Of a stretch of 64,000 nucleotides of DNA, positions 1,767 to 49,651 are shown piece by piece. The position numbers and the translations under genes were made by a program. This stretch comes from Planctomycetota bacterium (GTDB taxonomy: Bacteria > Planctomycetota > Phycisphaerae > Phycisphaerales > UBA1924), in NCBI GenBank assembly GCA_039819165.1, contig JBCBSM010000001.1, positions 1,736,001-1,800,000 of the forward strand, given 5' to 3'. The notes beneath the pieces were generated by a model, which was not told the DNA's origin, searched no databases, and was given only the letters and a program-made list of their open reading frames with translations. Each line of letters opens with the position of its first letter. Position 1 is the first letter of the stretch.

Positions 1767-2471
1767 TTACCGGTCGTCGTCTCCATCGGCGTCCTCACCG
1801 TCGCCATCCTCGTCCTCGTACTCCTCGTCGTCCTCGTACTCGTCCTCGTAGTCGTCGTCCTGGGCGTGATCCTCGGCGGCCCGGTTGCGCTCCTCGAGCA
1901 ACTCCTTGAGCTGATCGGGGTTGAGCACCCGCACCAGGCCGTCCTTGAGCCGCCGCTGGGCGAAGTTGATGATCAGGCCCAGCTCCAGCTCCAGGCTGCG
2001 GAGCTTGGCCCGCGTCTGCAGCCGCTCGCCCGTGCCCACGTCGCCCGGGCGGGAGACCAGATCCACGATGAATCGATCCTCGACGAATAGCGACGCGGCC
2101 ACCTGGCCGATCAGCGTGCCGCCGTACTCCACGTCGATCTTGCGATCGGCCACGTGGTCGATGCCTGCGTTGTCCAGTTCGGCCTGGAGCGCCTTGCTGT
2201 AGAGCTCGATGGGGTAGCCCGGCCCCAGCGTCTTGTGGACCTCAATGGCGCAGCCGATGACCCGGCGGCTTATGTCGGTCAGCTCGGGATCGAGGGCCGA
2301 CAGCGGGATGCCGTGGCGATCGTGCTGCTGGTGGCTGCCGCGGCCCCGGTGGCCGCCGCGCCCGTGACCGCCCCGGTGGCCCCCGCGGCGCCCCCCGCCG
2401 CGCGGTCGGTACTCACCCCGGTCGTCGTAGTCTCGGCTGTCGTTGCTCAAGTTGCGTGCTCCATGGCTCAT
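1767..2471 (-). CDS. GxxExxY-family protein with RGG-rich head and acidic tail
   Basis: A 234-residue protein in three parts. Residues ~1-62 are an Arg/Gly/His-rich low-complexity head with repeated RGG and HRG units. Residues ~65-190 match the GxxExxY family (PD-(D/E)XK nuclease superfamily): the signature GPGYPIELY is present, followed by a VEYGG strand and a C-terminal LGLIINF strand. Residues ~205-234 are almost entirely Asp/Glu. Where family members usually have an ADLLV strand and an E-x-K catalytic pair, this one reads AASLFV and VDLVS, so the expected acidic and Lys residues are missing. A longer frame opens at 2549, but I place the start at the ATG at 2469-2471 (MSHGARN), because the upstream residues look like read-through of non-coding DNA. 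Cellular role unknown; nucleic-acid binding by the RGG head is inference. Confidence 0.72.
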   Translation of the reverse strand: MSHGARNLSNDSRDYDDRGEYRPRGGGRRGGHRGGHGRGGHRGRGSHQQHDRHGIPLSALDPELTDISRRVIGCAIEVHKTLGPGYPIELYSKALQAELDNAGIDHVADRKIDVEYGGTLIGQVAASLFVEDRFIVDLVSRPGDVGTGERLQTRAKLRSLELELGLIINFAQRRLKDGLVRVLNPDQLKELLEERNRAAEDHAQDDDYEDEYEDDEEYEDEDGDGEDADGDDDR

Positions 2472-2907
2472 GCCAGCGTGTGGGATCGCACTCCGTTCGG
2501 ACAGCACGGGCCGGCAGATCCGAGGGACTGCACCAACCGGGGGGATCACCGAGCCTCAGCGGCGGCCTTCGGGCGTTTGTGCGAGCGGTCTCTCATCCAG
2601 CAACTGTCCTAAGAGCCACCCATCGCCCGAAGCGGCACACTCCGCGAGGCGCTCGGCACCGAACGATAGGGCCCAACCCGCGCCCGGAGGCGGATTGCCC
2701 CCCAAACATCCCCGCATAGCGCGGGTCGACCCGAATCCCGGGGTAACCAAGACTCACGCCGGGTCCCGCAATGAGGAAGTACGCGTTGCGTCCGCTCGCG
2801 CGTTATCGCACCATCCCAGGAATGTAAGTCCCCAGGACTTTCGAGAATGCGAAGATGTGCGATCAAGAGCGTGGCACGTGCATTGGTGCTTACCGGACTA
2901 GATCGCA
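2472..2907. other. 436-nt stretch without a supported gene
   Basis: Open frames on both strands here (for example on the minus strand across 2609-2908) have low third-position GC and no recognisable motif or ribosome-binding site, so I do not call them. The region is less GC-rich than its neighbours and contains a GCGGCCTTCGGGCG segment near 2565 that faintly resembles the dispersed repeat described elsewhere. It must hold the promoter for the minus-strand gene starting at 2471, but no clear -35/-10 pair is visible. Confidence 0.4.
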
Positions 2908-3285
2908 ATGACCGTCACGGCAACGAGTTCGCCCGACAGCGACGGCAACGCAGCATTCTGGCCAACGGATTCGGATGGCGCCGTCCCCGCTGCCGTCACC
3001 GAAGGCATCGCGTCGATGGTGTACTTCATCCAGGTTGATGTCGCCGCGACGGGCACGGCTAGCTCCTCGAGTGGCACACGCCACGCCGGAGCGGTCATCG
3101 CTCGTGCCGATGGCACCTTCGAGTACCTCGGCGACCTCGATGATCCCACGTTCGATCCGAGCGCCGGCAGCGACACGCTCACGCTCAACACCACGATCGC
3201 CGGCGACCCGAGCAAGGCCAACGCCTCCAATGACAAGCATGTGATCACGACGGGCTCGAGTGCCCACGGCACCTCGAGTCAATAG
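2908..3285 (+). CDS. Hypothetical Ser/Thr/Asp-rich protein
   Basis: A 125-codon ATG frame whose third positions are mostly G or C, unlike the competing minus-strand frames over the same DNA, which supports real coding. The product is polar and rich in Ser, Thr, Ala, Gly and Asp, with one hydrophobic strand (VYFIQVDV, about residues 38-45) and a segment reading FEYLGDLDDPTF. It has no cysteine, no signal peptide at this start and no recognised domain. Composition resembles surface or pilin-like extracellular segments, so it may be the distal part of a degraded secreted protein; no intact upstream part was found in another frame. It ends 10 nt before a strong hairpin at 3300-3322. There is no convincing Shine-Dalgarno, so the start is tentative. 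Confidence 0.4.
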   Translation: MTVTATSSPDSDGNAAFWPTDSDGAVPAAVTEGIASMVYFIQVDVAATGTASSSSGTRHAGAVIARADGTFEYLGDLDDPTFDPSAGSDTLTLNTTIAGDPSKANASNDKHVITTGSSAHGTSSQ

Positions 3286-3295
3286 TCGAGAGCAC

Positions 3296-3322
3296 AAAAA
3301 ACCCCGGCTGGACGCCGGGGTT
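3296..3322 (-). terminator. Rho-independent terminator (minus strand)
   Basis: A perfect 9-bp stem AACCCCGGC / GCCGGGGTT with a 5-nt loop lies at 3300-3322. Read on the minus strand it is followed by a run of U residues (the plus strand has AAAAAA at 3296-3301), the classic intrinsic layout. It ends transcription from the small membrane-protein gene whose stop is at 3358. On the plus strand the following sequence is only weakly T-rich, so it could act as a poorer terminator for the ORF ending at 3285. Confidence 0.85.
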
Positions 3323-3357
3323 GTTGCGGGCTGTCCGAGAGACAATCCGGAAAGTCG

Positions 3358-3558
3358 CTAGCCGCCGGGTGCCGTCGCACGCGAGCCACCGACGTAGCCC
3401 TCGTCGGCAACACGATCAACCAATTCCTGGTCCTCGGCGATGCCGGGGGCGCGCTCGTTCTCGCCACCCAGGAGAGAACGAGCGATGAGGACCACGGCGA
3501 CGATCAGGAGCGCCGCCCCGGCGAGGATCATGCCGAACTTTTTCTTGTCTTCAATCAT
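3358..3558 (-). CDS. Small single-pass membrane protein
   Basis: A 66-residue protein: a short charged N-terminus (MIEDKKK), a hydrophobic helix at about residues 8-28 (GMILAGAALLIVAVVLIARSLL), then an acidic soluble tail ending in TAPGG. The single helix with positive charges before it predicts a bitopic membrane protein with the tail outside or periplasmic. An intrinsic terminator lies 36 nt past the stop. It is the next same-strand gene after the pseudopilin that ends at 3606, with a 47-nt gap, so the two may be co-transcribed. No family was recognised. Confidence 0.65.
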   Translation of the reverse strand: MIEDKKKFGMILAGAALLIVAVVLIARSLLGGENERAPGIAEDQELVDRVADEGYVGGSRATAPGG

Positions 3559-3605
3559 GCGGAGTACACTCCGTCCAGGAGGCGAGTCCTGCTGACACCC
3601 CCAGG

Positions 3606-4508
3606 TTATCCGGGAGGCTCATCGCCCGCCAGCTCGAACACGAACGTGTAGTCGTCGGTCCGGAAGGTGTTGGGCTCTACGACGACGTACTCGGAATGTC
3701 CGTCCATGAACGCCATGACGGACTTGTTGCGATCACCGAATTCGCCGATGATGCCCTCTCCCGAACTATCGTTTGCGACGATGTCCGCCGTCTCATCGTG
3801 GATCCAGACGAACTTGGACGGGTTGAAGCCCGACGCAAGCCGGAGCCTGGCCGTGCCCTGCTCGAACGCCGCCCAGAAATCTCCGCCGGTCTGCTCCCGC
3901 ATGTAGTCGAACCACTTCATGTTGGTGTGGTAGCTGGTGCCCACGTCTTCATAACTGCTGAGGCTGTTGGTGGGGCGTGGCCACTGCTGCTGGTAGGTGA
4001 CCTTGTCGCCCGGTGACCGAAAGGCCTCCAGCTGCAGGCGCTCGCGGTAGTTGTCGCTGGGCGGCGCCTCGCGATAAGGATCGTCCTGCCATCCATCGGG
4101 GCGCAACAGCTCGATATCGCCGTGCACGTAGGGGTTCAGCGGCCGACCGAAGGCGGCCTCGTCGAAGAGGCCGCTGCTGCGGGTCCTCCAGTAGTCGTTG
4201 TTGTTCTTGCCGCCGAAGCTCCACGTGCACCAGCCGCCCCTGGACGCACCGCGATAGCTCTCCTTAAAGGGGAGTTCGTCGTGGTCGACGACGTACTGCG
4301 TCTGCGCAATGTTGATCTGGCGCGTGTTGCTGAGCGACACCGACTGCCAGCCCATCTGGCGGGCGCGGCCGAGCGCCGGCAGCAGGATGCCGATGAGCAG
4401 CGCGATGATCGCGATGACCACCAGCAGCTCGATGAGCGTGAAGCCGGGTCGCAACCTTCTGCTGAGCAGTGCGGTACGACGTGCGCGTCGCGACGTTGGT
4501 CCTGGCAT
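3606..4508 (-). CDS. Type II secretion/type IV pilin-like pseudopilin
   Basis: A 300-residue protein with a class III (prepilin) leader: a basic head rich in Arg, then [20 protein letters not shown] with cleavage expected between Gly and Phe and the conserved Glu at mature position 5. The helix continues into LPALGRARQMGWQ. The soluble domain has many Trp, Tyr and Asn residues and ends with an MAFMDGHSEYVV segment, recalling the C-terminal H/D-G motif of planctomycete DUF1559-type pseudopilins. The ATG at 4508 is preferred because GAGGA lies about 9 nt upstream; the open frame extends to 4730 but that part is not pilin-like. Substrate or role (pseudopilus component or surface filament) is unknown. 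Related tandem copies lie at 27.6-30.0 kb. Confidence 0.85.
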   Translation of the reverse strand: MPGPTSRRARRTALLSRRLRPGFTLIELLVVIAIIALLIGILLPALGRARQMGWQSVSLSNTRQINIAQTQYVVDHDELPFKESYRGASRGGWCTWSFGGKNNNDYWRTRSSGLFDEAAFGRPLNPYVHGDIELLRPDGWQDDPYREAPPSDNYRERLQLEAFRSPGDKVTYQQQWPRPTNSLSSYEDVGTSYHTNMKWFDYMREQTGGDFWAAFEQGTARLRLASGFNPSKFVWIHDETADIVANDSSGEGIIGEFGDRNKSVMAFMDGHSEYVVVEPNTFRTDDYTFVFELAGDEPPG

Positions 4509-4669
4509 TTCGAGATGTCCTCGCCGTTGGGTGCCCGCGTGCCGCCGGAGCCCCGGCCGATCGGTGCGCACGATGTCGCATCCGGCCGGTTGGCCCGGGA
4601 GAATGGCACGCCCGCACATGCGAACATGGACCGGCGCAACGACCGCCGGTGCCTCCCCTGGTGGTCGCC

Positions 4670-4697
4670 AGTATACACGATGGGGCGGCCGCCACAA
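4670..4697 (-). promoter_or_regulatory. Candidate sigma70-type promoter for the pseudopilin
   Basis: On the minus strand, TTGTGG (complement of 4692-4697) and TATACT (complement of 4670-4675) are separated by 16 nt, a good -35/-10 pair in an otherwise GC-rich region. It faces the pseudopilin starting at 4508, giving a leader of roughly 155 nt. That leader contains a perfect 7-bp hairpin, ACCGGCG / CGCCGGT, around 4632-4652. Confidence 0.55.
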
Positions 4698-4771
4698 TGG
4701 GTTTCGTGCCGCCGGCGCGCATGGCTGCACATTCCGGGGAGGTCCGTACCGGTCGCGCCGGCGGCGACACC

Positions 4772-5929
4772 TTACTTAAAACGAACCTTGCCGCTGCCGC
4801 TTCGGATAACCCCTAGCCGTGCGACGAGTTCTCCGGACCGCGCGAGCTTGGCGACCACGGCGTCGGCGAAGGTCGGCCGCACGATCAGGCAGAAGCCCAC
4901 GCCCATGTTGAAGACGCGGTCCATCTCCGCCGGCCGCACCGAGCCCCGCCGCTTGAGGAAGTCGAATATCGGCGGCACGCTCCAGCTCCCGCGGTCGAGC
5001 ACGGCGTCGACGCGGGGGTGCAGCGCCCGCTCGAGGTTGGCCGCCAGCCCGCCGCCGGTGACGTGCGCCATCCCGCTCACCACCCGCTTCACGCGGTAGC
5101 CCCGAAGCAGCTTGACGATGGGCTGGGCGTAGATCCGCGTGGGCGTCAGCAGCACCTCGCCCAGCGTGCGCTCCTCGTCCAGCTCCGGATAGACCGACGC
5201 GAGATCGAGGTTGGCGTGCCGGATGATGCGGCGGACCAGGCTGAACCCGTTGGAGTGCACGCCCGACGACGACAGCCCCAGCACGACGTCGCCCGGCTCG
5301 ACCCGCAGCGGGTCGATCGCCCGCTTGAGCTCGACGACGCCCACCGCGAAGCCCGCCAGGTCGTAGTCGCCCTCGGCGTACACGTCGGGCATCTCGGCCG
5401 TCTCGCCGCCCAGCAGCGAGCAGCCGGCGATGCGACAGCCATCCGCGACTCCCTTGACGATCTGCTCGATCTGCGCGGGCACCACGCGATGGATGCCGAT
5501 GTAATCCAGGAAGAACAAGGGCTCGGCGCCCTGCACGATCATGTCGTTGACGTTCATCGCAACGCAGTCCTGGCCGACGGTGTCGTGGCGGTCCATCGCG
5601 ACGGCCAGCAGCACCTTGGTGCCCACGCCGTCGGTGCAGGCGACCAGCACCGGGTCGCGGTAGTTCCGCTTGAAGAGCTGCTGGTTGTAATCCAGGCGAA
5701 AGAGGCCCGCGAAGCCCCCCGCGTTGGCGATCACCCGCTGGCCGTGCGTGCGGCGCATGTGCCCCAGGATGCGTCCGACCGCCTCGTCGCCCGCGTCGAT
5801 GTCCACGCCCGAGTCGGCGTAGGTCAGCCCCCGCGGACGAGACCGGTCCCGGGACCGCTCGCCGTGCTGTCCCTTCCCCGGGCCGCCGGAAGGGCCCGGA
5901 CGCTCGCTGCGGGTCTGGCTGCGGGGCAC
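4772..5929 (-). CDS. purM: Phosphoribosylformylglycinamidine cyclo-ligase (AIR synthetase)
   Basis: Catalyses ATP-dependent closure of FGAM to aminoimidazole ribotide, step five of de novo purine synthesis, in the cytosol. The family core starts at TYADSGVDIDAG (about residue 36) and includes ACTDGVGTKVLLA, VAMNVNDM, GGETAEMP, SSSGVHSNGFSLVR and the Gly-rich AHVTGGGLAANL. I choose a GTG start at 5929 (385 residues): AAGGAAG lies about 9 nt upstream, and the longer open frame to 6031 adds only non-conserved sequence. This start still leaves a ~35-residue Arg/Gly/Pro-rich extension before the conserved core, which is unusual. The gene is divergent from metK and is not next to purN or other purine genes. 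Confidence 0.93.
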   Translation of the reverse strand: MPRSQTRSERPGPSGGPGKGQHGERSRDRSRPRGLTYADSGVDIDAGDEAVGRILGHMRRTHGQRVIANAGGFAGLFRLDYNQQLFKRNYRDPVLVACTDGVGTKVLLAVAMDRHDTVGQDCVAMNVNDMIVQGAEPLFFLDYIGIHRVVPAQIEQIVKGVADGCRIAGCSLLGGETAEMPDVYAEGDYDLAGFAVGVVELKRAIDPLRVEPGDVVLGLSSSGVHSNGFSLVRRIIRHANLDLASVYPELDEERTLGEVLLTPTRIYAQPIVKLLRGYRVKRVVSGMAHVTGGGLAANLERALHPRVDAVLDRGSWSVPPIFDFLKRRGSVRPAEMDRVFNMGVGFCLIVRPTFADAVVAKLARSGELVARLGVIRSGSGKVRFK

Positions 5930-6092
5930 GGCGGGGCGCTTCCTTGCTTCGGGGCCGGGTGGGACGAGGCGGGATGGTCGAGTGCAGTGAGGATAGTGCC
6001 CGCCCCACGCCCGGGGCCCGCTTGGGACCAACGAACGCTCCGCCTATGCTGCCGACTCACGCAATCCCGAGCCGCCGAGACGCCGAGGCCCC

Positions 6093-7280
6093 ATGCACAG
6101 CACGCACCTGTTCACCTCCGAGTCCGTGTCGATGGGCCACCCCGACAAGGTGGCCGACCAGATCTCCGATGCCGTCCTGGACGCGATGCTGGCCGACGAT
6201 CCGCACTCCCGCGTGGCCGTGGAGACCATGGTCGCCACGGGGCTGGTGGTCGTCGCGGGCGAGGTGACCACCAACACCTACGTCGACATCCAGGATCTGG
6301 TCCGAGACACGATCCGCGGCATCGGCTACGACGACGCCCACATGCGCTTCGATTGCGATTCGTGCGCCGTGCTCGTCGCCCTCAACAAGCAGAGCCCCGA
6401 CATCGCCCAGGGCGTGGACCGCGAGGGCGCGGGCGACCAGGGCCTCATGTTCGGCTTCGCCTGCAACGAGACCGATGCGCTCATGCCGCTGCCCATCCAG
6501 CTGGCGCACCGCCTCGTCGAGCAGCAGGCCCACGTCCGCCGCGAAGAGATCATTCCCGGGCTGCGGCCCGACGCCAAGAGCCAGGTCACCATCGAGTACG
6601 ACGGGCTGGCCCCCAAGCGGGTCGACACGCTGGTGATGTCCACCCAGCACGACTCGTCCTGGAACGGCCGCCAGGACGCCCTCCGACGCGAGGTCATCGA
6701 GCACGTCTTCAAGCCCGTGCTCGGCGAGTGGTGGAACCCGGGCATCACCATCCACGTCAACCCGACGGGCAAGTTCGAGATCGGCGGGCCCCACGGCGAC
6801 GCCGGCCTGACCGGACGCAAGATCATCGTCGATACCTACGGCGGCCGCGGACGCCACGGCGGCGGCGCCTTCAGCGGCAAGGACCCCACCAAGGTCGATC
6901 GCTCGGCGGCCTACATGGCCCGCTACATCGCCAAGAACGTCGTCGCCGCCGATCTCGCCGACGTCTGCGAGGTGCAGCTCAGCTACGCCATCGGCGTGGC
7001 CGAGCCCACCAGCGTGCACCTGGACTGTTACGGCACCCAGAAGGTTGATCTCGCCCAGATCGAGAAGGCCATCCGCGAGGTCTTCCCGCTCACGCCCCGC
7101 GCCATCATCGAGACGCTCGACCTCCGCAAGCCCATCTACACCCGCACCGCGCGGCACGGCCACTTCGGACGCAAGCCGCTGGAAAAGGACGGCCGGACCT
7201 ACTTCGGCTGGGAGCGGACCGACCGAGTCGATCAGCTGCGGTCCGCCGCGGGCGCGTCGGCGTCGGCCGCCATGCCGTAG
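6093..7280 (+). CDS. metK: S-adenosylmethionine synthetase
   Basis: Makes S-adenosylmethionine from methionine and ATP, releasing phosphate and pyrophosphate; cytosolic tetramer in known enzymes. At 395 residues it has the standard length. Visible hallmarks are [17 protein letters not shown] at the N-terminus, the [12 protein letters not shown] hexapeptide region, and the phosphate loop [16 protein letters not shown]. The final 49 nt overlap the 3' end of nadD on the other strand, so the two mRNAs can pair tail to tail. The upstream 160 nt, shared with purM, show no recognisable SAM riboswitch and only a weak ribosome-binding site. Confidence 0.97.
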
Positions 7281-7960
7281 AGCGCATGCCGCCGCGCATA
7301 CGCGGCCACCCCCGGATGCAGCGGCGTCTCGAAGGGCCCGCCGTCGGCCTCCCGCACGTCGGTCGACGCCGCCCGCACGCCCGGCACCGCCACGAAGCGG
7401 TTCCGCCAGGCGTCGAGCTCGGCGTCGCTCCAGAACCCGCTCGAGCGCATCGCCTCGCGGAGCGCCGCGGCGTCCCGCACCCGGCCCCGGGGCAGCACCA
7501 GCGGCCGCGCCCGATCGAGCAGGCCGCGCGGATCCCGCCAGCGGTCGAATGCGGCGGCCTGGTCTGCGCCGATGACGAACCACAGCGTGGCACCGCCGGC
7601 CTGCGCCGCCGCTCGCTCGAGAGTCAGCGCCCAGTAGCTGGGTTCGCCCGCACGCGCCCGATCGATCTCGTCGCTCCACACCGCGCACCGGTCCACCTCA
7701 GCAGACGCGATGCACACCATCTCCAGCCGCTGGCGATCGCCGGCCTCGGGCGGATCGGCCTTGTGGGGCGACCGGGCCGCCGGCACGAACACCAGCCACG
7801 CGCGCTCGCCGGTGTCGGCTTCGACGCGTCGCCGCGCGAGGTCGGCGAGGTCCACGTGGGCGACGTGCGGCGGATCGAATGTGCCGCCGAACAGCACGAC
7901 GTGCGCGCACTCCGGGGGAACATGCAGCACCGGTACGGGCTGGCGAGATTCAACGGCCAC
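7232..7960 (-). CDS. nadD: Nicotinate-nucleotide adenylyltransferase
   Basis: Adenylates nicotinate mononucleotide to deamido-NAD in NAD synthesis. The nucleotidyltransferase fold is marked by [13 protein letters not shown] near the N-terminus, SPHK, the [11 protein letters not shown] segment, and a C-terminal ISSTxVR-like motif here reading [13 protein letters not shown] start at 7960 gives 242 residues; the open frame reaches 8062 but that upstream part overlaps the preceding gene and is not conserved, and no clear Shine-Dalgarno settles the choice. It follows the small anchored protein gene ending at 7996 with a 35-nt gap and probably shares its transcript. Its 3' end overlaps metK by 49 nt in antisense. 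Confidence 0.87.
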
Positions 7961-7995
7961 GCGGCACGCTAGCGCGCCCGGCCGTTGCGGCGGCC

Positions 7996-8373
7996 CTAGG
8001 GCCCGTCGTCGGGCACCATCATGATCGGGCCGAACTCCGCCGGCGCCGCGTCGGCGTGCCAATCCCCCGGCGCAAGCTCGGGGAAGCGCTCGGCCAGCGT
8101 CTCGAAGGTAAGCCGCTCGGCCACGATCACGCCCGCGTCGCTCTTGACGGTGTAGCGAGGGCCGTCGGCGGTCGCCTCGATGACCACCTCGTGCCCGCGG
8201 CCCACGAGCGAGCCGAGGGCGACCGGCTTGCGCTCGGAGAAGGTGCCGAGCTGCTCGTCCTGCGTCGCCGTGCCCGCCCGGGGCTCGATCGCGAACAGCG
8301 CCACGAGCACCGCGGCCGCAATCGCCAGGGCGCTCGCGCGGGTGCGGGGTCGGAATCTCGGGACGGGCCTCAT
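7996..8373 (-). CDS. Hypothetical exported or membrane-anchored protein
   Basis: 125 residues from the ATG at 8371-8373: a basic head (MRPVPRFRPRTR), a hydrophobic helix (ASALAIAAAVLVALFAI, about residues 13-30), then a soluble domain of about 90 residues beginning RAGTATQDEQLG. The domain contains an EVVIEATADGPRYTVKSDAG strand pair and an ERLTFETLAERFPELAP stretch, with no cysteine and no recognised family. The longer open frame to 8529 runs through a structured repeat and is not a credible start. It lies between prfA and nadD on the same strand. Confidence 0.6.
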   Translation of the reverse strand: MRPVPRFRPRTRASALAIAAAVLVALFAIEPRAGTATQDEQLGTFSERKPVALGSLVGRGHEVVIEATADGPRYTVKSDAGVIVAERLTFETLAERFPELAPGDWHADAAPAEFGPIMMVPDDGP

Positions 8374-8453
8374 GCGGATGTCATCGGCTCCCGGGCGGAT
8401 TGAATGGAGCAATGTCGGTGAACTCGTCGCGTCGGGGAGGGCATTGGAGCAGA

Positions 8454-8525
8454 CCGAAGCCCGCAGATTTGCTCCTGCGCGGGTTCGATAAGCGAGCGTC
8501 GCGGCCGAAGGCCGCGACGGAGCGA
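8454..8525 (-). repeat. Dispersed structured repeat, copy A (downstream of prfA)
   Basis: Read on the minus strand this 72-nt element starts TCGCTCCGTCGCGGCCTTCG and closely matches, across its whole length, the plus-strand element at 48025-48096. It folds into a perfect 10-bp hairpin CGTCGCGGCC-TTC-GGCCGCGACG (8498-8520), followed by a second stem built from CGAACCCGC and GCGGGCTTCG. It begins 11 nt after the prfA stop; a further small hairpin AGCGATC/GATCGCT fills that gap. There is no U-tract, so it is not a standard intrinsic terminator. Confidence 0.75.
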
Positions 8526-8536
8526 TCAAGATCGCT

Positions 8537-9640
8537 CTAGAGCGCCGCGAGCCGCTCGGCGGTCCGCTGCTCGGTGAGGGCCTGCATGATCGGACCCAGG
8601 TCGCCCTCCATCAGCGTCGTGCGGAGGTTGAACTTGGCGTCCAGCCGCTGGTCGGCCACGATGCCGTCCTGGTAGCGGTAGACGCGGACCTTCTCGGACC
8701 GCTCGCCGGTGCCGATCTGTCCCTTGCGGGCGGCGGAACGCTCGGCCTCGGCCTCCCGCAGCTGGCGCTCGTAGAGCCTCGCCATCAGCAGCCGCCGCGC
8801 CTTCTCCCGGTTCTGGTGCTGGCTCTTGCTCTCCTGCATCCGCACCTCGATGCCGGTGGGCGCGTGCACCAGGTGCACCGCGGTGGCCACCTTGTTGACG
8901 TTCTGCCCGCCCGGACCCTGGGCGGTCGTGATGTGCTCGGTCACGTCGTTCGCCCAGTCGACCTTGATCTCGACCTGCTTGGGCTCGGGCAGCACCGCGA
9001 CGGTCGCCGTCGACGTGTGGATGCGGCCCTGGGCCTCGGTCTCGGGCACCCGCTTGACCGAATGCACGCCGGCCTCGAAGCTCAGTTCGGCCCAGACGCC
9101 CTCGCCCTTCACGCCCACGGTGACCGACCGCACGCCCCCGAGGCCGTCGCCGCCGCTGACGTCCATGGCCTCGAAGCTCCAGCTCCGCCGGCCGGCGTAT
9201 TTCTCGTACATCTGCAGCAGGTCGCGGGCCCAGAGCTGCGCTTCGTCGCCCCCGGCTCCGGCCCGCACCTCGAGGATCACCGAGCCCACCAGCTGGTCGT
9301 CGGAGCCGACGAGCGCCCCCTTGACCGCCTCGATCTCCTCGACCGCCTTGGCCTCCAGCTCGGGCAACTCGGCCCGGGCCATCTCGACCAGCTCGGCGTC
9401 GTCGCCGGCATCGATGGCCTGCCGCATCTCGGCCGCTTCGTCCAGCAGCCCGCGGTACCGCTGGTAGCCCTCGGCGACCGGCGCGAGCGCGGCTCGCTTG
9501 ATCGACAGGTCCCGCACCTTCTCGTGGTCCGCCAGCACCTCGGGATCCTGCAGGTCGGACTCAACCCGGCGGAACTGGTCGGCCAGCTCGTCGAGCTTGG
9601 CGCGGACGGCGTCGGGGATGTCGGCGGCGGTGGTGCTCAC
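8537..9640 (-). CDS. prfA: Peptide chain release factor 1
   Basis: A 367-residue class I release factor that reads UAA/UAG stop codons and triggers peptidyl-tRNA hydrolysis. The hydrolysis motif GPGGQNVNKV is present. The codon-reading tripeptide is PET within RVPETEAQGRIHTSTATVAVLPE, fitting the P-x-T class of RF1 and excluding the SPF motif of RF2. The N-terminal helical domain and the SKSQHQNREKA segment are typical. No prmC/hemK methylase gene is adjacent, although it is a common neighbour. The structured repeat copy A follows the stop codon. Confidence 0.96.
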   Translation of the reverse strand: MSTTAADIPDAVRAKLDELADQFRRVESDLQDPEVLADHEKVRDLSIKRAALAPVAEGYQRYRGLLDEAAEMRQAIDAGDDAELVEMARAELPELEAKAVEEIEAVKGALVGSDDQLVGSVILEVRAGAGGDEAQLWARDLLQMYEKYAGRRSWSFEAMDVSGGDGLGGVRSVTVGVKGEGVWAELSFEAGVHSVKRVPETEAQGRIHTSTATVAVLPEPKQVEIKVDWANDVTEHITTAQGPGGQNVNKVATAVHLVHAPTGIEVRMQESKSQHQNREKARRLLMARLYERQLREAEAERSAARKGQIGTGERSEKVRVYRYQDGIVADQRLDAKFNLRTTLMEGDLGPIMQALTEQRTAERLAAL

Positions 9641-9712
9641 GTCGCATTGTTCGCGGCCGGGCGGACCGACGCGAGGGCTCTACGCCGCGGCGGCCCGGGC
9701 GTAACGTTGGCC

Positions 9713-10483
9713 ATGGCCCGCGACGACCTGCACGAGTCCGCCGACATCGTCCGCCACAAGAAGCCCAAGGAGCGGGGCTTCGAGCTCGCCCACGGCGACG
9801 AGGCCCTCATCAACGCCGTCACCGAGCACTTCACCCGGCACATCGGCGAGCCCGAGCACGTCTACCACGAAATGGTCTCCGACCTCATCCACCTCGACGT
9901 GCACTTCATCCCGCCCAGCAACGAGCACCCCTACTACACCGCCTTCACCACCGGCATGGCCGAGCGAGCCATGCAGGCCCCCGAGGGCGCCGAGGAGTTC
10001 ACCCACGCCGAGCTGATGATCAAGCTGCCCGAGACCTGGCGGACCGACTTCACCGACGAGTTCCTCGAGTTGCCCGAGGCCGAGCAGCAGCGGCACTTCT
10101 GGCCCATCGGCGTGATGAAGACCCTGGCCCGCTTCCCCCACGAGTACCAGACCTGGCTCTACTCGGGCCACACCGTGCCCAACGGCGACCCGCCCGCCCC
10201 CTTCGCCGACGACACGCAGATGGCCTGCGCCCTGCTCACCCCGCCGATGATCGAGAGCGAGGACTTCGGCACCGTCGAGCTCGCCGACGGACGACGCGTG
10301 TTCATCCTGCAGCTCTTGCCCATCGGAGCGGGCGAGACCGAGTACAAGCTGCGCAACGGCGTGGAAACGCTCATCGATCTCTTCCAAGAACAGGGCGTGG
10401 GCGACGTGGTGGACCCAGGCCGCCCGGACGTCTCGGGGCTGCGGGCCCGCCGGCGTCGCAAGAAGTTCCTCGGCCTCTTCTAG
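9713..10483 (+). CDS. SUFU (suppressor of fused) domain protein
   Basis: A 256-residue cytosolic protein matching bacterial SUFU-domain proteins: HVYHEMVSDLIHLDVHFI near residues 50-67, a THAELMIKLP strand, the WPIGVMKTLARFPHEYQTWLYSGHTVPNG block in the middle and a C-terminal LLPIGAGETEYKLRNGVETLI. Bacterial SUFU domains are of uncertain function; comparative genomics has linked some to immunity in polymorphic-toxin loci. No toxin, Rhs or YD-repeat gene is adjacent, so that role is not supported here. The start is the ATG at 9713, divergent from prfA; a much longer in-frame extension upstream is antisense to prfA and is discounted. The tail is basic (RARRRRKKFLGLF). Confidence 0.87.
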   Translation: MARDDLHESADIVRHKKPKERGFELAHGDEALINAVTEHFTRHIGEPEHVYHEMVSDLIHLDVHFIPPSNEHPYYTAFTTGMAERAMQAPEGAEEFTHAELMIKLPETWRTDFTDEFLELPEAEQQRHFWPIGVMKTLARFPHEYQTWLYSGHTVPNGDPPAPFADDTQMACALLTPPMIESEDFGTVELADGRRVFILQLLPIGAGETEYKLRNGVETLIDLFQEQGVGDVVDPGRPDVSGLRARRRRKKFLGLF

Positions 10484-10566
10484 GGCGCACCGCCGCCGAC
10501 GCCGCGTACCGCTGCCGGGCGGGGCGGGCGGGCACCGCCGCTACCATTGGCCCCTCGGAGGCCCCC

Positions 10567-11559
10567 GTGACCAACGCCATCTCCATGCGCCACATCCGAA
10601 AGACCTTCGGGCCCAAGGTCGCCGTCGAGGGGCTGGACCTGGCCATCCGCGAGGGCGCGATGGTCGGCATGATCGGCCCCAACGGCGCGGGCAAGAGCAC
10701 CACCATCCGCATGATCATGTCCATCCTCTTCCCGGATTCGGGAGAGCTCCAGGTGCTCGGACGCAAGAGCGCCCTAGAGAGCAAGGACCGCATCGGCTAC
10801 CTGCCCGAGGAACGCGGCGTCTACCGCAAGATGAAGGTCCGCGGCTTCCTCAAGTACGTGGGCAAGCTCAAGGGCGTCCGCGAGCCCGAGCTCGGCCAGC
10901 GCGTGCAGCACTGGCTCGATCGCGTGGGCCTCGCCGACGCCGCCGACAAGAAGTGCGAGGAGCTCAGCAAGGGCATGCAGCAGAAGGTGCAGTTCATCGC
11001 CGCCGTGCTGCACGAGCCCGAACTGCTGATCCTCGACGAGCCCTTCAGCGGCCTGGACCCGGTCAATCTCCGGCTGCTGCAGGACCTGATGACCGAGCAG
11101 CACCGGGCGGGCAGGACCGTGGTGCTCTGCACGCACGTGATGTTCCAGGCCGAGCAAATGTGCGACGAGATCGTGATGATCCATGACGGCCGCAAGGTGC
11201 TGGACGCGTCGATGGCCGAGATCCGCGCTCAGCACGAGCCCAACGCCGTGGTGTTCGAACCCGTGAATGGGTCCAACGCCGAGGCCGCCGCCCGGGCCAT
11301 CCCCGGCGTGCAGGCCGTCACGCAGACCCGCGAGGGCTGGATGGCCTACACCGATCCCGAGGCGCTGCCCGCGCACGACGCCGTCCGCGCCATCGCGGCC
11401 GCCATCGACGTGCGGAGCGTGGCCGCCAAGCGGGTGACGCTCGAGGACGTGTTCGTCGAGATCGTCGCCGGCGGCGACGCCGAGGACCGAGACGAGATCC
11501 GCCAGCGGCTGCACGAGCCGGCGCAGGCGAGCGAGCAACCGGAGGCCGCCGGCACGTGA
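10567..11559 (+). CDS. ABC transporter ATP-binding protein (NatA-like)
   Basis: A 330-residue ATPase of an ABC-2 exporter. Walker A is GPNGAGKST, the signature LSKGMQQKVQFIA, Walker B LLILDEPFSGLDP, and the switch histidine is in CTHVMFQAEQM. After the ~215-residue ATPase core there is a C-terminal domain of about 110 residues of the kind seen in NatA/ABC-2 proteins that ends in a charged tail. The start is a GTG with GGAGG 8 nt upstream. The stop overlaps the permease start by 4 nt (GTGA), showing translational coupling. The substrate is unknown; the NatAB resemblance suggests Na+ or small-molecule extrusion but this is inference. Confidence 0.93.
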   Translation: MTNAISMRHIRKTFGPKVAVEGLDLAIREGAMVGMIGPNGAGKSTTIRMIMSILFPDSGELQVLGRKSALESKDRIGYLPEERGVYRKMKVRGFLKYVGKLKGVREPELGQRVQHWLDRVGLADAADKKCEELSKGMQQKVQFIAAVLHEPELLILDEPFSGLDPVNLRLLQDLMTEQHRAGRTVVLCTHVMFQAEQMCDEIVMIHDGRKVLDASMAEIRAQHEPNAVVFEPVNGSNAEAAARAIPGVQAVTQTREGWMAYTDPEALPAHDAVRAIAAAIDVRSVAAKRVTLEDVFVEIVAGGDAEDRDEIRQRLHEPAQASEQPEAAGT

Positions 11560-12932
11560 CACGCATCCTCAACATCGCCGCCCGCGAGTACGCCTCCACC
11601 GTGATCACCAAGGCCTTCCTGATCGGCGCCGTGGTCGTGCCGGCCATCTTCGCCGCCGCCATCCCGGTGGTCGGCTGGATCATCAGCCAGCAGGAGGCGC
11701 CGGCCATCAAGGGCGTGGTCGCCGTGATCGATCCCACGGGCGAGGTCGCCCCCCGGCTGGCCGAGTATCTCGCCCCCGAGGCCATCGCCGAGCGCCGCGG
11801 CGACTTCATCGAGCAGGCCCCGATCTCCACGCCGCAGGTGCCCGAGGCCGGCCAGGAGCAGGTCGATCGCGCCCTCGACCTCGTCCTGGGCGAGGTCCCC
11901 ACGCTCACCGTCGAGACGCTGCCGAGCGGGACCGACCCCGAGGCCGCCAAGGCCCGCATCCTGGAGGGCCAGAAGGACGACCCGACCGCGACCATCGCCG
12001 TCGCGATCATCGACGCCGACGCGCTGGTCAAGCCCGACGAGCAGGAGTCCTTCGGCGGCTACGCGCTCTCGACCAGGCCCAAGCTCGACGACCGCATCAC
12101 CGACGAGATCGAGGGCGGCCTCCGCCGGACGATCCGCGATGCGCGGTACGAGGCCAACGGCTTCAGCCGCGAGGTGATCGGCGCCCTGGTCAACGTCGAT
12201 GCACCCCGCACGACCGAGATCACCGAGGAGGGCGAGCGAGAGTCCAGCGAGGTCTTCAGCTTCATCCTGCCCATCGTCATGATGATGCTGGTGCTCGGCG
12301 CCGTGTTCACCGGCGGCCAGTACCTGCTCACGACGACGATCGAGGAGAAGTCCAACCGCGTGGTCGAGGTGCTGCTCAGCGCCGTCTCGCCCATGCAGCT
12401 GATGGCCGGCAAGATCCTGGGCCAGATGTGCGTCGGGCTGACGATGCTGCTGATCTACTCGGGCGTGGGCATCGCGGCGCTCATCGCCTTCAGCCTGAGC
12501 TACCTCGTCGAGCCGCTGGTGCTGGTGTACATGTTCCTGTTCTTCCTGGCGGGCTACGGCATGATCGCCAGCCTGATGGCCGCCGCCGGCGCCGCTGTGA
12601 ACGACCTCCGCGAGGCCCAGGCCTTCATGACGCCCATCATGATGGTGATGATGGTCCCCTACCTTGCGATGCTCATCATCCCGCGGAACCCCAACTCCAC
12701 CCTCGCGGTGGTCATGAGCTTCCTGCCGCCCATCAATCCCTTCATCATGATGCTGCGGATCGCCAGCAACGATCCGCCGCCCCTCTGGCAGATCCTCGCG
12801 GCCCTGGTCGTCGCCTTCGCCGGCGCCGCCGCCGCCATGTGGCTGGCCGCCAAGGTCTTCCGCGTCGGTCTGCTCATGTTCGGCAAGCCGCCGGACTTCA
12901 AGACGCTCATCCGCTGGGTGCGGATGGCGTGA
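11556..12932 (+). CDS. ABC-2 type transporter permease (NatB-like)
   Basis: A 458-residue membrane partner of the preceding ATPase. One helix near residues 20-45 is followed by a large extracytoplasmic domain (about residues 50-235), then a cluster of about five helices (FILPIVMMMLVLGAVFTGGQYLL onward) with the EEKSNRVVEVLLSAVSPMQLMAGKI coupling segment typical of ABC-2 permeases. The overall layout matches NatB-type permeases. Its GTG start overlaps the ATPase stop, and its own stop overlaps the next gene's GTG by 4 nt, so all three are translated as a coupled unit. Confidence 0.92.
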   Translation: MTRILNIAAREYASTVITKAFLIGAVVVPAIFAAAIPVVGWIISQQEAPAIKGVVAVIDPTGEVAPRLAEYLAPEAIAERRGDFIEQAPISTPQVPEAGQEQVDRALDLVLGEVPTLTVETLPSGTDPEAAKARILEGQKDDPTATIAVAIIDADALVKPDEQESFGGYALSTRPKLDDRITDEIEGGLRRTIRDARYEANGFSREVIGALVNVDAPRTTEITEEGERESSEVFSFILPIVMMMLVLGAVFTGGQYLLTTTIEEKSNRVVEVLLSAVSPMQLMAGKILGQMCVGLTMLLIYSGVGIAALIAFSLSYLVEPLVLVYMFLFFLAGYGMIASLMAAAGAAVNDLREAQAFMTPIMMVMMVPYLAMLIIPRNPNSTLAVVMSFLPPINPFIMMLRIASNDPPPLWQILAALVVAFAGAAAAMWLAAKVFRVGLLMFGKPPDFKTLIRWVRMA

Positions 12933-13738
12933 CCGACAGCCGCGCCGCGCCCTCGGCCCAGGACCTCTACGAGCTCTGCGTGCAGAGCCCACCCGAGGTC
13001 GTCCGGCTGCTGCGGGCGATCCACGGCGGCGAACCCAAGATCCTCGGCGAGGACTTCGCCGGCAGCGGCGCCATCAGCCGCGCATGGGTCACGCAGAGCG
13101 AGACCCACATCGCCACGGCGGTCGATCGCGACGCCGGCGCGCTCGCCCGCTGCGATGGCGTTCCACGCCTCACTCCCATCGCCGGCGACGCCCTGGACGC
13201 CGACGCCCAAGCCGACGCCATCTGGGTGGGCAACTTCTCGATCGGCTACCACCACGACCGCGCGCAGCTCGTGCGGTACCTGGCCAACGCCCGCGCGAGA
13301 TTGCACAAGGGCGGCGTCTTCGTCTGCGATACCTACGGCGGCGAGACGGCCTTCCTGACCGGCGAGGTCCACCGATTCCACCCGCTGCCCGAGCACTTGT
13401 CACCCGACGGCACCGGCGGCTGGCGCATCCGCTACACCTGGGAGCAGCGCGAGGCCGACCCGCTCACGGGCATGGTCACCGACGTGCTGCACTTCCGCCT
13501 CGAGCGTGCGGGCGTAATCGACATGGAATTCCCCGACGCCTTCGTTTATCGCTGGCGGCTGTGGAGCGTGCCCGAGCTGCGGGACGCGATGCGCGAGGCG
13601 GGCCTGACCCGGACCGCCGTGTACGCCCAGCTGCCCGACGCCGAGGACGACGACGGCACGCCCTACATCCGGCCGATCGAGGACGCGAGCGAGCTGGACG
13701 ACAGCTTCATCGTGTGCGTGGCCGGCCGCGTGCCGTAG
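12929..13738 (+). CDS. Class I SAM-dependent methyltransferase
   Basis: 269 residues from a GTG that overlaps the permease stop by 4 nt. Motif I is a variant, LGEDFAGSGAISRAW, followed by an acidic-loop strand ATAVDRDAGALARC and AIWVGNFSIGYHHDR at the post-motif II position, then LHKGGVFVCDTYGGE, all in Rossmann-fold methyltransferase order. The substrate is unknown. A fixed, overlapping position behind an exporter is suggestive of modification of the exported compound or of the transporter, but other members would be needed to show that. A longer in-frame ORF opening at 12428 inside the permease is a shadow. Confidence 0.85.
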   Translation: MTDSRAAPSAQDLYELCVQSPPEVVRLLRAIHGGEPKILGEDFAGSGAISRAWVTQSETHIATAVDRDAGALARCDGVPRLTPIAGDALDADAQADAIWVGNFSIGYHHDRAQLVRYLANARARLHKGGVFVCDTYGGETAFLTGEVHRFHPLPEHLSPDGTGGWRIRYTWEQREADPLTGMVTDVLHFRLERAGVIDMEFPDAFVYRWRLWSVPELRDAMREAGLTRTAVYAQLPDAEDDDGTPYIRPIEDASELDDSFIVCVAGRVP

Positions 13739-13813
13739 CGCACGTGGCGGCTCAACGCTGCGGCGTAGCATCCCATTCGGCCACCAGTACGCGTATGACT
13801 CGGAGACGCCCGC

Positions 13814-15085
13814 ATGCATCGCCCGCTCGCCACCCTTGCCGCACTCGCCTCGACGGCCTCTCTCGCCGCCGCCCAGTCGAGCATCGCCAACGCCCTGGCC
13901 AGCAGCGATCCGCTGGTGCGGACCTACGACGCACACGTGACCACGCTGGCCAATCCGGCCATGGGCGGACGCCTGCCGGGCAGCCAGGGCATGGAATGGG
14001 CCAAGCAGTACGTCGAGCACTACTTCGAGGCCGCGGGCCTCGAGCCCGCCTTCGGCTCGGGTGAGCCCTCCTGGCGGCAGCCCTTCCCGCTGGGCCGGAT
14101 CACCGCCGAGAACGTCGGCGGCGTGCTGCCCGGCGTAGGGGAGTTGGCCGACGAGTACGTCGTCGTCGGCGCCCACCTCGATCATCTGGGCACGGGCCTC
14201 TTCGGCTCGCGGGGCACCGTGGGCATGCTGCACCCCGGCGCCGACGACAACGCCTCGGGCGTGGCGGGCATCCTGGTGCTGGCCGAGATGCTGGCCGCCG
14301 ATTTCGCCGACGACACCGCCGACCGCCGCGGCGTGCTGTTCCTGGCCTTCAGCGGCGAGGAATCGGGCCTGCACGGCGCAAACTACTACGTCGACAATCC
14401 CATCGCCGCCGCCGACAAGCACGCGCTCATGATCAACTTCGACATGATCGGCCGCATCCAGGGCGGCGGCGTCTCGGTCTCGGGTGCGCAGTCGGGCGAG
14501 GGGTTGCGGAACTTGCTCGAGCCCATCTTCGAGGAGTCGGACCTCACCGAGACCATCGAGGGCACCACCATCGCCGCCAGCGACCACTGGTCGTTCTACG
14601 CCGCGGGCATCCCGGTGCTCTTCGGCTCCGCGTCGTCGATCAACCCCGACTACCACACCGAGGACGACGTGTCCTGGAAGATCAACCGCGTCGATGCGGT
14701 GCGGGCGATGCGGGTGTTCGCCGACGTGATCGAGGCCGCCGCCACGCACGCCGACGGCTTCGAGTTCGTGCGATCCGATCCGCAACGCAGCGGGCCATCG
14801 ATGGCCGACATCCGCGTGCGCTTCGGCATCCGTCCGGGCGCGTACGGCGACGGCGAGTCGGGCGTGGCGGTCGGCGGCGTATCGCCCGACACCTCGGCCG
14901 AGGCCGCGGGCCTGCGAGAGGGCGACGTCCTGATCGCCTGGGACGGGGAGGAGATCGGCGACATCCGCGGCTGGATGGGCATGCTCGCGCGGCACGACCC
15001 CGGCGACGTCGTCGTCGTGACCATCCTGCGCGACGGCGATCGGCAGGACATCGAGGTCACCCTGCAGGGCAAGAGCGGCAACTAA
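13814..15085 (+). CDS. Secreted M28-family metallopeptidase with C-terminal PDZ domain
   Basis: A 423-residue exported aminopeptidase-like enzyme. A signal peptide (MHRPLATLAALASTASLAAAQ) precedes the catalytic domain. The two-zinc site is readable in order: VVGAHLDHLG (His), PGADDNASG (Asp), FSGEESGLHG (Glu-Glu), INFDMIGR (Asp) and NPDYHTEDD (His). Residues from about 335 form a PDZ domain (GVAVGGVSPDTSAEAAGLREGDVLIAWDGEEI), an arrangement found in several bacterial M28 proteins where PDZ may guide substrate choice. It is a single gene with its own ATG, 75 nt after the methyltransferase gene. Confidence 0.93.
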   Translation: MHRPLATLAALASTASLAAAQSSIANALASSDPLVRTYDAHVTTLANPAMGGRLPGSQGMEWAKQYVEHYFEAAGLEPAFGSGEPSWRQPFPLGRITAENVGGVLPGVGELADEYVVVGAHLDHLGTGLFGSRGTVGMLHPGADDNASGVAGILVLAEMLAADFADDTADRRGVLFLAFSGEESGLHGANYYVDNPIAAADKHALMINFDMIGRIQGGGVSVSGAQSGEGLRNLLEPIFEESDLTETIEGTTIAASDHWSFYAAGIPVLFGSASSINPDYHTEDDVSWKINRVDAVRAMRVFADVIEAAATHADGFEFVRSDPQRSGPSMADIRVRFGIRPGAYGDGESGVAVGGVSPDTSAEAAGLREGDVLIAWDGEEIGDIRGWMGMLARHDPGDVVVVTILRDGDRQDIEVTLQGKSGN

Positions 15086-15196
15086 CCGCACGCGGCGCCC
15101 GGCGGGCGTCGCCGCTCGCGACGCGCACGTCGATCCGCCGCTCGACGCTGCGCGGACGCTCCGCTAACCTGAGAGCCGCGCGGTGTTCCGGTTCTT

Positions 15197-15211
15197 GAGA
15201 AGGCTCTTCTC
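15197..15211. promoter_or_regulatory. Inverted repeat upstream of the ZIP transporter
   Basis: GAGAAG-GCT-CTTCTC is a perfect 6-3-6 palindrome ending 23 nt before the GTG start of the ZIP gene. It could be an operator for a metal-responsive regulator or an RNA hairpin in the leader; no regulator gene lies beside it to decide. Confidence 0.35.
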
Positions 15212-15234
15212 GACCGTGCAGGCCTGGAGCACGC

Positions 15235-16793: not shown

Positions 16794-16794
16794 G

Positions 16795-47991: not shown

Positions 47992-48024
47992 CTTGTCGGA
48001 TGCCGGCGGCTAGATCGATCCCTG

Positions 48025-48096
48025 TCGCTCCGTAGCGGCCTTCGGCCGCACACTCGCTCGCCGAACCCGCGCAGGAGTGAATCCTGCGGGGTTCGG
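48025..48096 (+). repeat. Dispersed structured repeat, copy B
   Basis: The plus-strand partner of copy A (8454-8525, minus). It begins TCGCTCCGTAGCGGCCTTCG and folds as GCGGCC-TTC-GGCCGC followed by a long stem CCGAACCCGC...GCGGGGTTCGG (48061-48096) capped by AGGA/TCCT. Base changes relative to copy A fall mostly in loops or keep pairing. It lies 94 nt past the stop of a same-strand gene, again in a 3' position. Confidence 0.75.
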
Positions 48097-48142
48097 ACCG
48101 CTCGAACCGGTCCAGAGTTGCTACGAACTTGCTGAGTCTGCT

Positions 48143-49651
48143 CTAGCAGCCCGCATCGAAGAGGTTCTGGAACGCCAGGAAGTCGAACAGCGTGAGCGCG
48201 CCGTCGCCATCGACGTCGGCTCTCGGATCGCCCGCGTCGAAGAGGTTCTGGAAGGCGAGGAAGTCGAACAGCGTCAGCGCACCGTCGCCATCGATGTCGG
48301 CCGGGCAGTCCGCGGCTACGACCTCGCCAACGACGCGAACGACGCGGACGGGCTCGTCGGGGTCGTTCGACAGGATCCGCAGCTCGGCATCGAAGGGACC
48401 GAGGGCGGCCGAATCGATGGCGATGGCCTGCAGGTCGAGCGTGCCGCCGGCGGGATCGGCGAATTCGCCGGCGGGCGGTTGCAGCGGCGCGTCGGCCTGG
48501 AACGAGTAGACCAGGTCCTGGATGCCGGCGGCCGACCAGCGGGCGACGTCGCCCGCGTTGCCGACGGGCAGGTCGACCGAGGCGGCGGCGCCCCGCTCGA
48601 TCTCGCCGGCGTCGAGGCTCGTGAGCGAGCCGATCTTCGCGGGCACCCGCAGATCGAGGAACACGGGAAGGTGCCCGAGCGAGCCACCCGGCGCCAGGAA
48701 GAGGGCGCGGGCGATGGTGCGGCCGACCATGGCGTTATCGCGGGCCATCGGCTCGTCGAGGGTCGTGCCGTCGTTACCCCAGGTGCGGAAGCTGTGGTCG
48801 GGGTCGGCGAACGTGGTCCGGCTGATGCGCTTTGTGGCGTCGCCCAGGTAGTCGAGTCCGTCGCCGTCGATGAGATCGTCGTTGACGAGGATCTGGTCGA
48901 AGCGGTCGTCCATCGCGTCGACGGGGTCCTGGGTGTGCAGGAAGCGGAACAGCGAGCTATCCCGCCAGGTGCCGGGGCTCACGATGGGATCGAACAGCCG
49001 CCCGTTGTTGCTCGCGCGCGACTCGACCAGTTCGCGGTAGGCGAACTCGTCCGAGCCCCGCATGTTGAGGTCCCCCGCGAGCAGGAAGTGCGTGCCGGCG
49101 GGCAGCCCGCGGGCGTCGGCGCGGAGGGCGAGCGCCTCGGCAAGCCTTCGGTCACGATCGGTGGACGACGTGCCCGCCTTCATGTGCGTGCCGTAGATCA
49201 CCAGCCTGGGCTCGTCGTAGCCGAAGACGGCGAGGTCGTACCGCATCAGGTGCCGGGGGTGCGCCGGGGCCGCGCCGCCGGGCGAGACGACGCTCGTATC
49301 GCGGAGCGACGCACGGCTCGCGCGGTAGAAGAGCACGGTGTCGGTCGTCGGGCCGTCGATGTAGGGCGCCGCGACCCAATCGCCGCCCCCGCGGGCATCG
49401 CTGTTCAAGATGCCGAGAAACCGGTCTGCGGCCGAGGCCGAGCCCATCTCCTGCACGACGAGCACGTCGGGGCGGAACGATCGGCCCTCGAACTCGTCGA
49501 AGAGCGCGACGCGGAAGTGCTCGTCGCGGCCGGGCTCGCCGCGGTAGTCGGTCAGGTTCCAGGTGCCCACGCGGAGCTGGCCTATCGATGGTGCGGCCGC
49601 CGCCAGAACGATCGCCCCCGCCAGCCGTGCCGCGTGCCGCGCCGATGCCAT
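48143..49651 (-). CDS. Exported endonuclease/exonuclease/phosphatase-fold protein with dockerin
   Basis: 502 residues. A signal peptide ends near PSIGQ; RVGTWNLTDYRG, VLVVQEMGS, IYGTHMKAG, LLAGDLNMRG and DPDHSFRTW give the EEP-fold active-site series (Asn, Glu, Asp-x-Asn, Asp-His), so it is a likely secreted nuclease or phosphoesterase. A beta domain (about 325-445) follows, then a dockerin-like end: CPADIDGDGALTLFDFLAF and DPRADVDGDGALTLFDFLAF, two DxDxDG calcium loops, finishing at Cys. This is the planctomycete 'GC-type dockerin' architecture. No cohesin gene is visible in the window. Confidence 0.88.
   Translation of the reverse strand: MASARHAARLAGAIVLAAAAPSIGQLRVGTWNLTDYRGEPGRDEHFRVALFDEFEGRSFRPDVLVVQEMGSASAADRFLGILNSDARGGGDWVAAPYIDGPTTDTVLFYRASRASLRDTSVVSPGGAAPAHPRHLMRYDLAVFGYDEPRLVIYGTHMKAGTSSTDRDRRLAEALALRADARGLPAGTHFLLAGDLNMRGSDEFAYRELVESRASNNGRLFDPIVSPGTWRDSSLFRFLHTQDPVDAMDDRFDQILVNDDLIDGDGLDYLGDATKRISRTTFADPDHSFRTWGNDGTTLDEPMARDNAMVGRTIARALFLAPGGSLGHLPVFLDLRVPAKIGSLTSLDAGEIERGAAASVDLPVGNAGDVARWSAAGIQDLVYSFQADAPLQPPAGEFADPAGGTLDLQAIAIDSAALGPFDAELRILSNDPDEPVRVVRVVGEVVAADCPADIDGDGALTLFDFLAFQNLFDAGDPRADVDGDGALTLFDFLAFQNLFDAGC
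48158..48301 (-). repeat. 81-nt-period tandem duplication inside the dockerin
   Basis: Two 63-nt blocks (48158-48220 and 48239-48301) are almost identical, offset by 81 nt (27 residues). They encode the two dockerin calcium-loop segments. The nucleotide similarity, higher than protein constraint needs, points to recent duplication or conversion within the domain. Confidence 0.8.

Follow-up and report, generated by a model that had tools for sequence, protein, structure and literature searches.

A probable REP/BIME-like repeat of Phycisphaerales and related Planctomycetota, with stop codons of adjoining genes inside its ends

The window analyzed here, a 64,000-nucleotide stretch of a Planctomycetota genome (G000), contains two copies, A and B, of an element that is repeated many times in this genome, lies at gene 3' ends with the stop codons of the adjoining genes inside its own ends, is present in a lineage-specific manner after prfA and contains a stem with compensatory changes. 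With moderate confidence we interpret it as a dispersed REP/BIME-like repeat of Phycisphaerales and related Planctomycetota, which would spread to gene 3' ends, supply stop codons there and then persist as a stabilizer of the 3' UTR; from these observations we infer a mobility mechanism, transcription of the element and a stabilizing role.

Table 1. Window positions of the two copies of the repeat and of the genes that they end
Feature	Position	Strand	Remarks
Full element, copy A	8404..8540	-	137 nt, long subfamily, between prfA and next gene; covariance-model match G000:C1:1744404-1744540
Left end CTAG, copy A	8537..8540	-	TAG 8539-8537 is the prfA stop codon
Hairpin 1, copy A	8490..8527	-	GTCGCGGCC/GGCCGCGAC variant
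Hairpin 2, copy A	8454..8487	-	Decayed by one base
Full element, copy B	48010..48146	+	137 nt; covariance-model match G000:C1:1784010-1784146
Hairpin 1, copy B	48023..48059	+	Outermost pairs lost
Hairpin 2, copy B	48061..48096	+	
Right end CTAG, copy B	48143..48146	+	Minus-strand reading is the TAG stop (48145-48143) of the convergent ORF 48143-49651
prfA, peptide chain release factor 1, ended by copy A	8537..9640	-	Best NCBIfam names NF001859/TIGR00019, both below curated cut-offs
Convergent ORF, 502 aa	48143..49651	-	Weak Exo_endo_phos match; stop within right end of copy B

The end-to-end alignment of two 72-nt stretches (8454-8525, minus strand, and 48025-48096, plus strand), from which a preliminary description had started, was borne out together with its quoted motifs, and the match between the copies is far above chance. 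However, the 72 nt are not the repeat unit, which is longer and spans 137 nt in both window copies, and the CTAG ends, the stop codons supplied by them and the wider family had been missed. Each copy had been said to begin soon after a stop codon on its own strand, whereas copy A begins within the stop codon of prfA and copy B lies 79 nt past the same-strand ORF stop (47928-47930). Changes between the copies had been said to keep the stems, which is true of hairpin 1, whose stem is retained in both copies, but not of hairpin 2, which in copy A has lost one base and does not form in the minimum-energy fold. Pieces of 112 nt from both copies fold better than shuffled sequence (z -4.0 for copy A and -3.4 for copy B), and the right end of copy A is degenerate, reading CTCCAT. 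A GC-rich hairpin, GGCCCTCGG...CCGAGGGCC, is additionally seen at 47960-47991, between the ORF stop (47930) and copy B.

BLAST searches of the own genome with copy B (48012-48105) as query recovered 29 matches at E<=0.001, including itself and copy A. The covariance-model search suggested in the preliminary description found not just two copies, but 36 in the own genome (weakest E 8.8e-7, the 20 training copies being among these matches), and pairs of hairpin 1 do covary. Most full copies are 127 or 128 nt long, and a second subfamily, including both window copies, measures 137 or 138 nt. The typical element starts with CTAGAGCA and finishes with TGCTCTAG, i.e. it has inverted ends generally reading CTAG; 81.5 and 82.5% of the end cells are paired in 20 copies, and these terminal inverted repeats were seen solely in the own species. 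The ends of a given copy resemble each other only marginally more than swapped ends do (190 vs 179.7 +/- 5.2, 0.037; 0.093 for positions 8-16). The modules of the element, namely hairpin 1, hairpin 2 and the spacers, are found in different combinations, including arrays. The loose motif CGAACCCGCNCAGGA with two mismatches was rejected, its 164 matches being near background (137 in the reversed control).

The gene context was tallied for 34 of the 36 own copies (those at C1:2048147 and C1:2245713 were left out), with ORFs called from length and codon-position G+C alone. These copies lie downstream of coding regions: a same-strand gene-like ORF is present upstream of 31, and 30 of these ORFs end at most 18 nt before the anchor of the element. 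In 26 of the 34 copies the TAG stop of a gene-like ORF is located 14-18 nt before the CGCTCCG anchor, exactly at -15 in 21 of them, and thus falls within the left end of the element; with a density of 46 genes per 64 kb, chance would account for 0.06 such cases. Of the 27 stops found between -18 and -14, 26 are TAG, whereas TAG makes up 26 of the 46 stops of a set of non-overlapping window genes, among them both ORFs ended by the window copies (binomial 4e-6). CTAG accounts for 21 of the 26 TAG stops of the elements, as against 13 of 26 in the same set (binomial 0.001) or 19 of 77 under a looser gene filter (binomial 3e-9). The exact TAG background varies with the gene set, since the looser filter gives 77 TAG among 105 stops; nevertheless, the binomials for TAG and CTAG against the non-overlapping set indicate that the fit of the stops exceeds the TAG preference of the genome. 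At the other end, the TAG of a convergent gene-like ORF falls within the element in 7 of the 34 copies (L060, L065, L073, L077, L078, L082 and L083), and as judged from their residues the right ORFs of L078 and L083 are doubtful and, like the left ORF of L072, possibly in the wrong frame. The genes ended by the element are ordinary, several of them core, and the share of core genes is suggestive: NCBIfam and Pfam name ribosomal proteins L21 (rplU) and L20 (rplT), NusG, IF-1 (infA), ClpP and MTHFR (metF), and the best names below curated cut-offs are RF1 (prfA), GreA and a FabH-like synthase (FabH from the last 200 residues alone).

TAG is the commonest stop in the 71% G+C window (1-64000; 26 of 46 in the non-overlapping gene set), which is unusual at such a base composition, and at prfA, clpP and nusG of the congeners it accounts for 2 of 18 stops. 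The tetranucleotide CTAG is depleted in the window (34 observed vs 68 expected from trinucleotides), and four CTAG sites (16047, 26381, 38221 and 56659) each provide the stop for both members of a convergent pair of gene-like ORFs. In two other genomes another release-factor homologue, probably prfB, has one in-frame TGA, likely a programmed frameshift (G002:C12:11704-12753 and G004:C1:1964240-1965292), and this TGA is absent from the G000 match.

Hairpin 1 has a core composed of GAGCG, an unpaired CTCC, GT, one bulged base, a variable stem of 5-6 bp with a mostly TNC loop, and then AC, ACT and CGCTC, and often directly follows a stop codon. Among 105 distinct cores (L110, L112, L149, L159, L203 and L209 left out), the 62 of exactly 37 nt were compared. 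In these cores 94.5% of the cells are paired, 6 of the 13 pairs carry changes on both sides, and double-change cells number 87, compared with 36.3 +/- 3.7 in shuffled controls and no more than 22 in slid ones; since most columns beyond the stem are set by the search patterns, the stem alone counts as evidence. In hairpin 2, three pairs have both-side changes among the 20 full own-species copies, mostly between the two subfamilies and hence perhaps reflecting few events, and pair types are no more numerous than in shuffles (65 of 500 have as many). Following the conserved GT of hairpin 1 there is an A, T or C and then a base that is part of the stem; GTAG, GTAC, GTTC, GTTG and GTCG all occur, GTAG is not conserved, and CGTC is confined to a minority variant. 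As far as can be judged from sequence, the element likely acts as RNA and is probably a 3'-UTR RNA structure. Two signatures of RNA were considered and dropped: the counts of G-U vs A-C in hairpin 1 were mixed (4 vs 9 in the inner helix, 23 vs 10 in the whole), and the loops, though resembling the UNCG tetraloop cUNCGg, form a TNC triloop in the actual pairing register.

The covariance model gave 1-5 weak matches in five of six congeners, with only hairpin 1 in common, and no copies in the sixth (G006); outside the genus, G027 contains both hairpins (L090), and weak matches in G012, G014 and G055 were set aside as unrelated-looking by eye. A pattern for hairpin 1 that left the stem unconstrained matched 16 of 251 genomes of the order (one in the reversed control), 14 of them with a true stem after exclusion of G120 and G171, which have no stem. 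In a phylum set of 392 genomes it matched five, namely four of the own genus and G464, which again has no stem (control two). A scan of GTDB yielded at least 120 loci, and of 120 of these 116 have titles naming Planctomycetota or one of its subgroups (Phycisphaerae, Phycisphaerales, Phycisphaeraceae and, for one MAG, Planctomycetia), the remaining four being two chance matches (L203 and L209) and two contigs (L178 and L187). The latter two, short low-coverage contigs of a MAG titled Deltaproteobacteria Ww563 (JAHEJV), carry hairpin 1 at gene ends, which may reflect contamination or transfer. Hairpin 1 was matched 103 times among 80 of the at least 120 loci, and its exact pattern was not matched in viral contigs. 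Strict-pattern counts were 115 in G618 (JADFKZ), 19 in G619, 17 in G620, 12 in G622, 8 in G621, 6 in G623 and 2 in G624 (control 0), G619-G622 being G227, G249, G190 and G132 over again (equal places).

Gene contexts in other genomes were drawn from L168-L247 (80 of the at least 120 loci), minus L203, L209, repeated contexts and matches at most 300 nt from the locus start. Among 73 first-in-array units (70 of them individually listed), a gene-like stop lies no more than 20 nt away in 30, being TAG in 20 of these, and 43 have none; at least eight read TAGTTTGAGCG, its TAG serving as the stop. When units less than 700 nt from the locus end or preceded by another unit are further omitted, 7 of the 58 first-in-array units listed have the TAG of a convergent ORF in the right end, all of them in JADFKZ (L186, L194, L206, L213, L214, L221 and L227). 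In JADFKZ the left ends (CTGTTTC or CTAGTTT) and the right end (...CTGCGCTAG) do not form an inverted pair. One locus (L136, 1497-1772) contains a head-to-tail array of 4.7 copies with a 59-nt period and hairpin 1 in the unit; the array begins directly after a TAG stop.

Comparison of orthologous gene ends revealed one empty site as well as retained ones. The prfA orthologues of six congeners are 76-81% identical to that of the window, and all six have a TAA or TGA stop, a small gene a few tens of nucleotides later and no element in between, implying that copy A is lineage-specific; the gene beyond copy A shares 45-52% identity, across some 109 residues, with its counterparts in the three congeners compared. 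No element was found within 230 nt downstream of the stops of clpP and nusG in the six congeners; these were dropped as empty sites and show its absence from the 230 nt alone, because neighbors and gene order differ by eye. In four congeners, on the other hand, hairpin 1 occupies an equivalent gene end, flanked by a gene whose product ends in QRSEDLAQVFAQA... (or a near-identical version) and one whose product starts with MPIVPLPQFE, and it is retained in two congeners each at the orthologous ends of ahcY, rpoA (both identified from their last 60 residues) and one more gene. At ahcY it is identical in both genomes and is followed by a separate hairpin with a T-tract, which argues that hairpin 1 is not the terminator there. 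At rpoA (L102 and L092) the stems are GAGCCC/GGGCTC vs GCGGCC/GGCCGC and the stop codons differ, that of one genome being the TGA in the hairpin's own TGAGCG.

Y1 transposases, searched for as candidate mobilizing enzymes, were not detected in the copy-rich genomes G000 and G227, and Y1 genes are present in 8 of the 15 genomes searched; 19 Y1 loci of other genomes had no clear hairpin 1, with one fuzzy match (L149). A pattern for a full element with the same ends (at most one mismatch, 35 contigs of the own genome) gave 18 matches, 16 of which were known copies and two single mismatched ones, and 11 matches in the reversed control. Inspection of the flanks by eye revealed nothing in common beyond CTAG that could represent a target-site duplication, prfA being the single comparable empty site and diverged. 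No T-tract is present in copy A or B, nor was one detected there in terminator scans of 1-20000 and 40000-59999. At gathering level Rfam matched only tRNA in the window and SSU rRNA in L186, with nothing in L019, L103 and L136 and nothing around copy B up to E=1, and a known Rfam family was accordingly rejected as the identity of the element. A literature search found no description of the repeat family, papers containing its sequence words having been judged unrelated from their entries; most subscription journals lay outside its coverage.

BIMEs are mosaics of REPs, and the combining modules and the 59-nt-period arrays of the present family are reminiscent of them, but the units in the observed arrays are head to tail rather than inverted pairs. 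IS630-type MITEs are non-coding, of comparable size, and have inverted ends with terminal TA or CTAG, all of which the element shares; it differs in that a partner element was not found and that inverted ends occur in the source species only. REPs, as characterized in passages of Di Nocera et al. (2013; PMC3733652), are palindromes of 20-40 bp near gene 3' ends, are reported from Planctomycetes among others, and include CGTC types also occurring without a linked transposase and GTAG types whose termini often provide TAG stops. Like the GTAG/CGTC REPs of these passages, the family is a many-copy, intergenic short palindrome (36 own copies, 115 pattern matches in G618, covariation) adjoining gene 3' ends, whether the genes are codirectional or convergent. 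Unlike them, it has no conserved unpaired terminal GTAG or CGTC tag, conserves an asymmetric internal loop, CTCC/ACT, part of which the search patterns themselves impose, sits in the source species inside a 127-137 nt unit with CTAG ends, and is taxonomically concentrated, 116 of the at least 120 scanned loci being titled Planctomycetota or a subgroup. As stop-supplying REPs are already in print (PMC3733652, in the same passages), the family is best considered a variant of a known REP-like kind, and it looks like an undescribed REP lineage.

Based on these observations we propose that the copies spread as non-autonomous units into gene 3' ends. As its ends read CTAG, the element would supply a TAG stop to the preceding gene and sometimes also to the convergent gene opposite, and, carrying its own stop, it would leave the protein intact upon gene-end insertion. 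The inserted element would be transcribed as the first part of the 3' UTR, where its hairpins most likely shield the 3' end of the upstream mRNA. REPs protect mRNA 3' ends in E. coli, and near stop codons they can slow ribosomes. Several observations sit less comfortably with this proposal: neither a Y1 gene (G000, G227) nor a full element with the same ends was found, inspection by eye showed no target-site duplication beyond CTAG, the G-U vs A-C counts of hairpin 1 do not prove RNA, 43 of 73 first-in-array units elsewhere have no gene-like stop within 20 nt, swapped ends match almost as well as own ends, and prfA, the sole site with the same neighbor, has TAA or TGA in the congeners, making CTAG only a candidate target. 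The evidence favors the earlier reading, a REP/MITE-like element or a 3'-UTR RNA, over a standard terminator, except that a MITE in the strict sense calls for a partner element that the searches did not find.

We consider it unlikely that the element is such a classical MITE, that is, a small DNA transposon bounded by CTAGAGCA terminal inverted repeats, with TA or CTAG as its target, and moved in trans by a full insertion sequence. A TA/CTAG target is IS630- or IS5-like, the inverted ends CTAGAGCA...TGCTCTAG and the lineage-specific copy at prfA fit, and the four window CTAG sites that are dual convergent stops would explain why both ends are stops; but no other sequence of the own genome has these ends with one mismatch allowed, the JADFKZ left ends are not the inverse of the right end, and head-to-tail arrays exist. 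The presence of hairpin 1 at orthologous gene ends (one gene pair in four congeners; ahcY, rpoA and another gene in two apiece), the differing rpoA stems and the strong covariation of hairpin 1 are what would be expected of a vertically kept 3'-UTR RNA motif, terminator-like or a processing signal, which arose or was copied through recombination and is not mobile. We judge this equally improbable, in view of its absence after prfA, clpP and nusG (230 nt for the latter two) in six congeners, a copy number ranging from 0 (G006, model search) to 115 (G618, pattern) and, as regards a terminator, the T-tract hairpin at ahcY.

A GTAG-type REP moved by a RAYT (Y1) transposase is disfavored still more strongly and appears very improbable: a short 3'-end palindrome giving TAG stops, as GTAG REPs do in the passages of PMC3733652, and Y1 genes in 8 of 15 genomes are consistent with it, but two copy-rich genomes have no Y1 gene, none of the 19 Y1 loci has a clear hairpin 1, and GTAG is merely one of five sequences seen at its position. 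A more speculative idea, which we regard as possible though rather doubtful, is that of a mobile, non-coding gene-ending cassette with a stop in each end and, between them, a conserved protein- or ribosome-facing hairpin with an internal loop, recognized as RNA by some factor; the cassette would spread through Phycisphaerales by seizing the stops and 3' UTRs of genes, and would end two genes at once when these are convergent.

The dispersed REP/BIME-like repeat proposed here would extend stop-supplying REP-like repeats to a lineage in which a linked transposase was not found. Its copies are positioned precisely at stop codons, are kept at rpoA and ahcY in congeners and include a lineage-specific one at prfA, which makes it possible to test whether repeats of this type parasitize gene ends or serve as functional parts of the 3' UTR.
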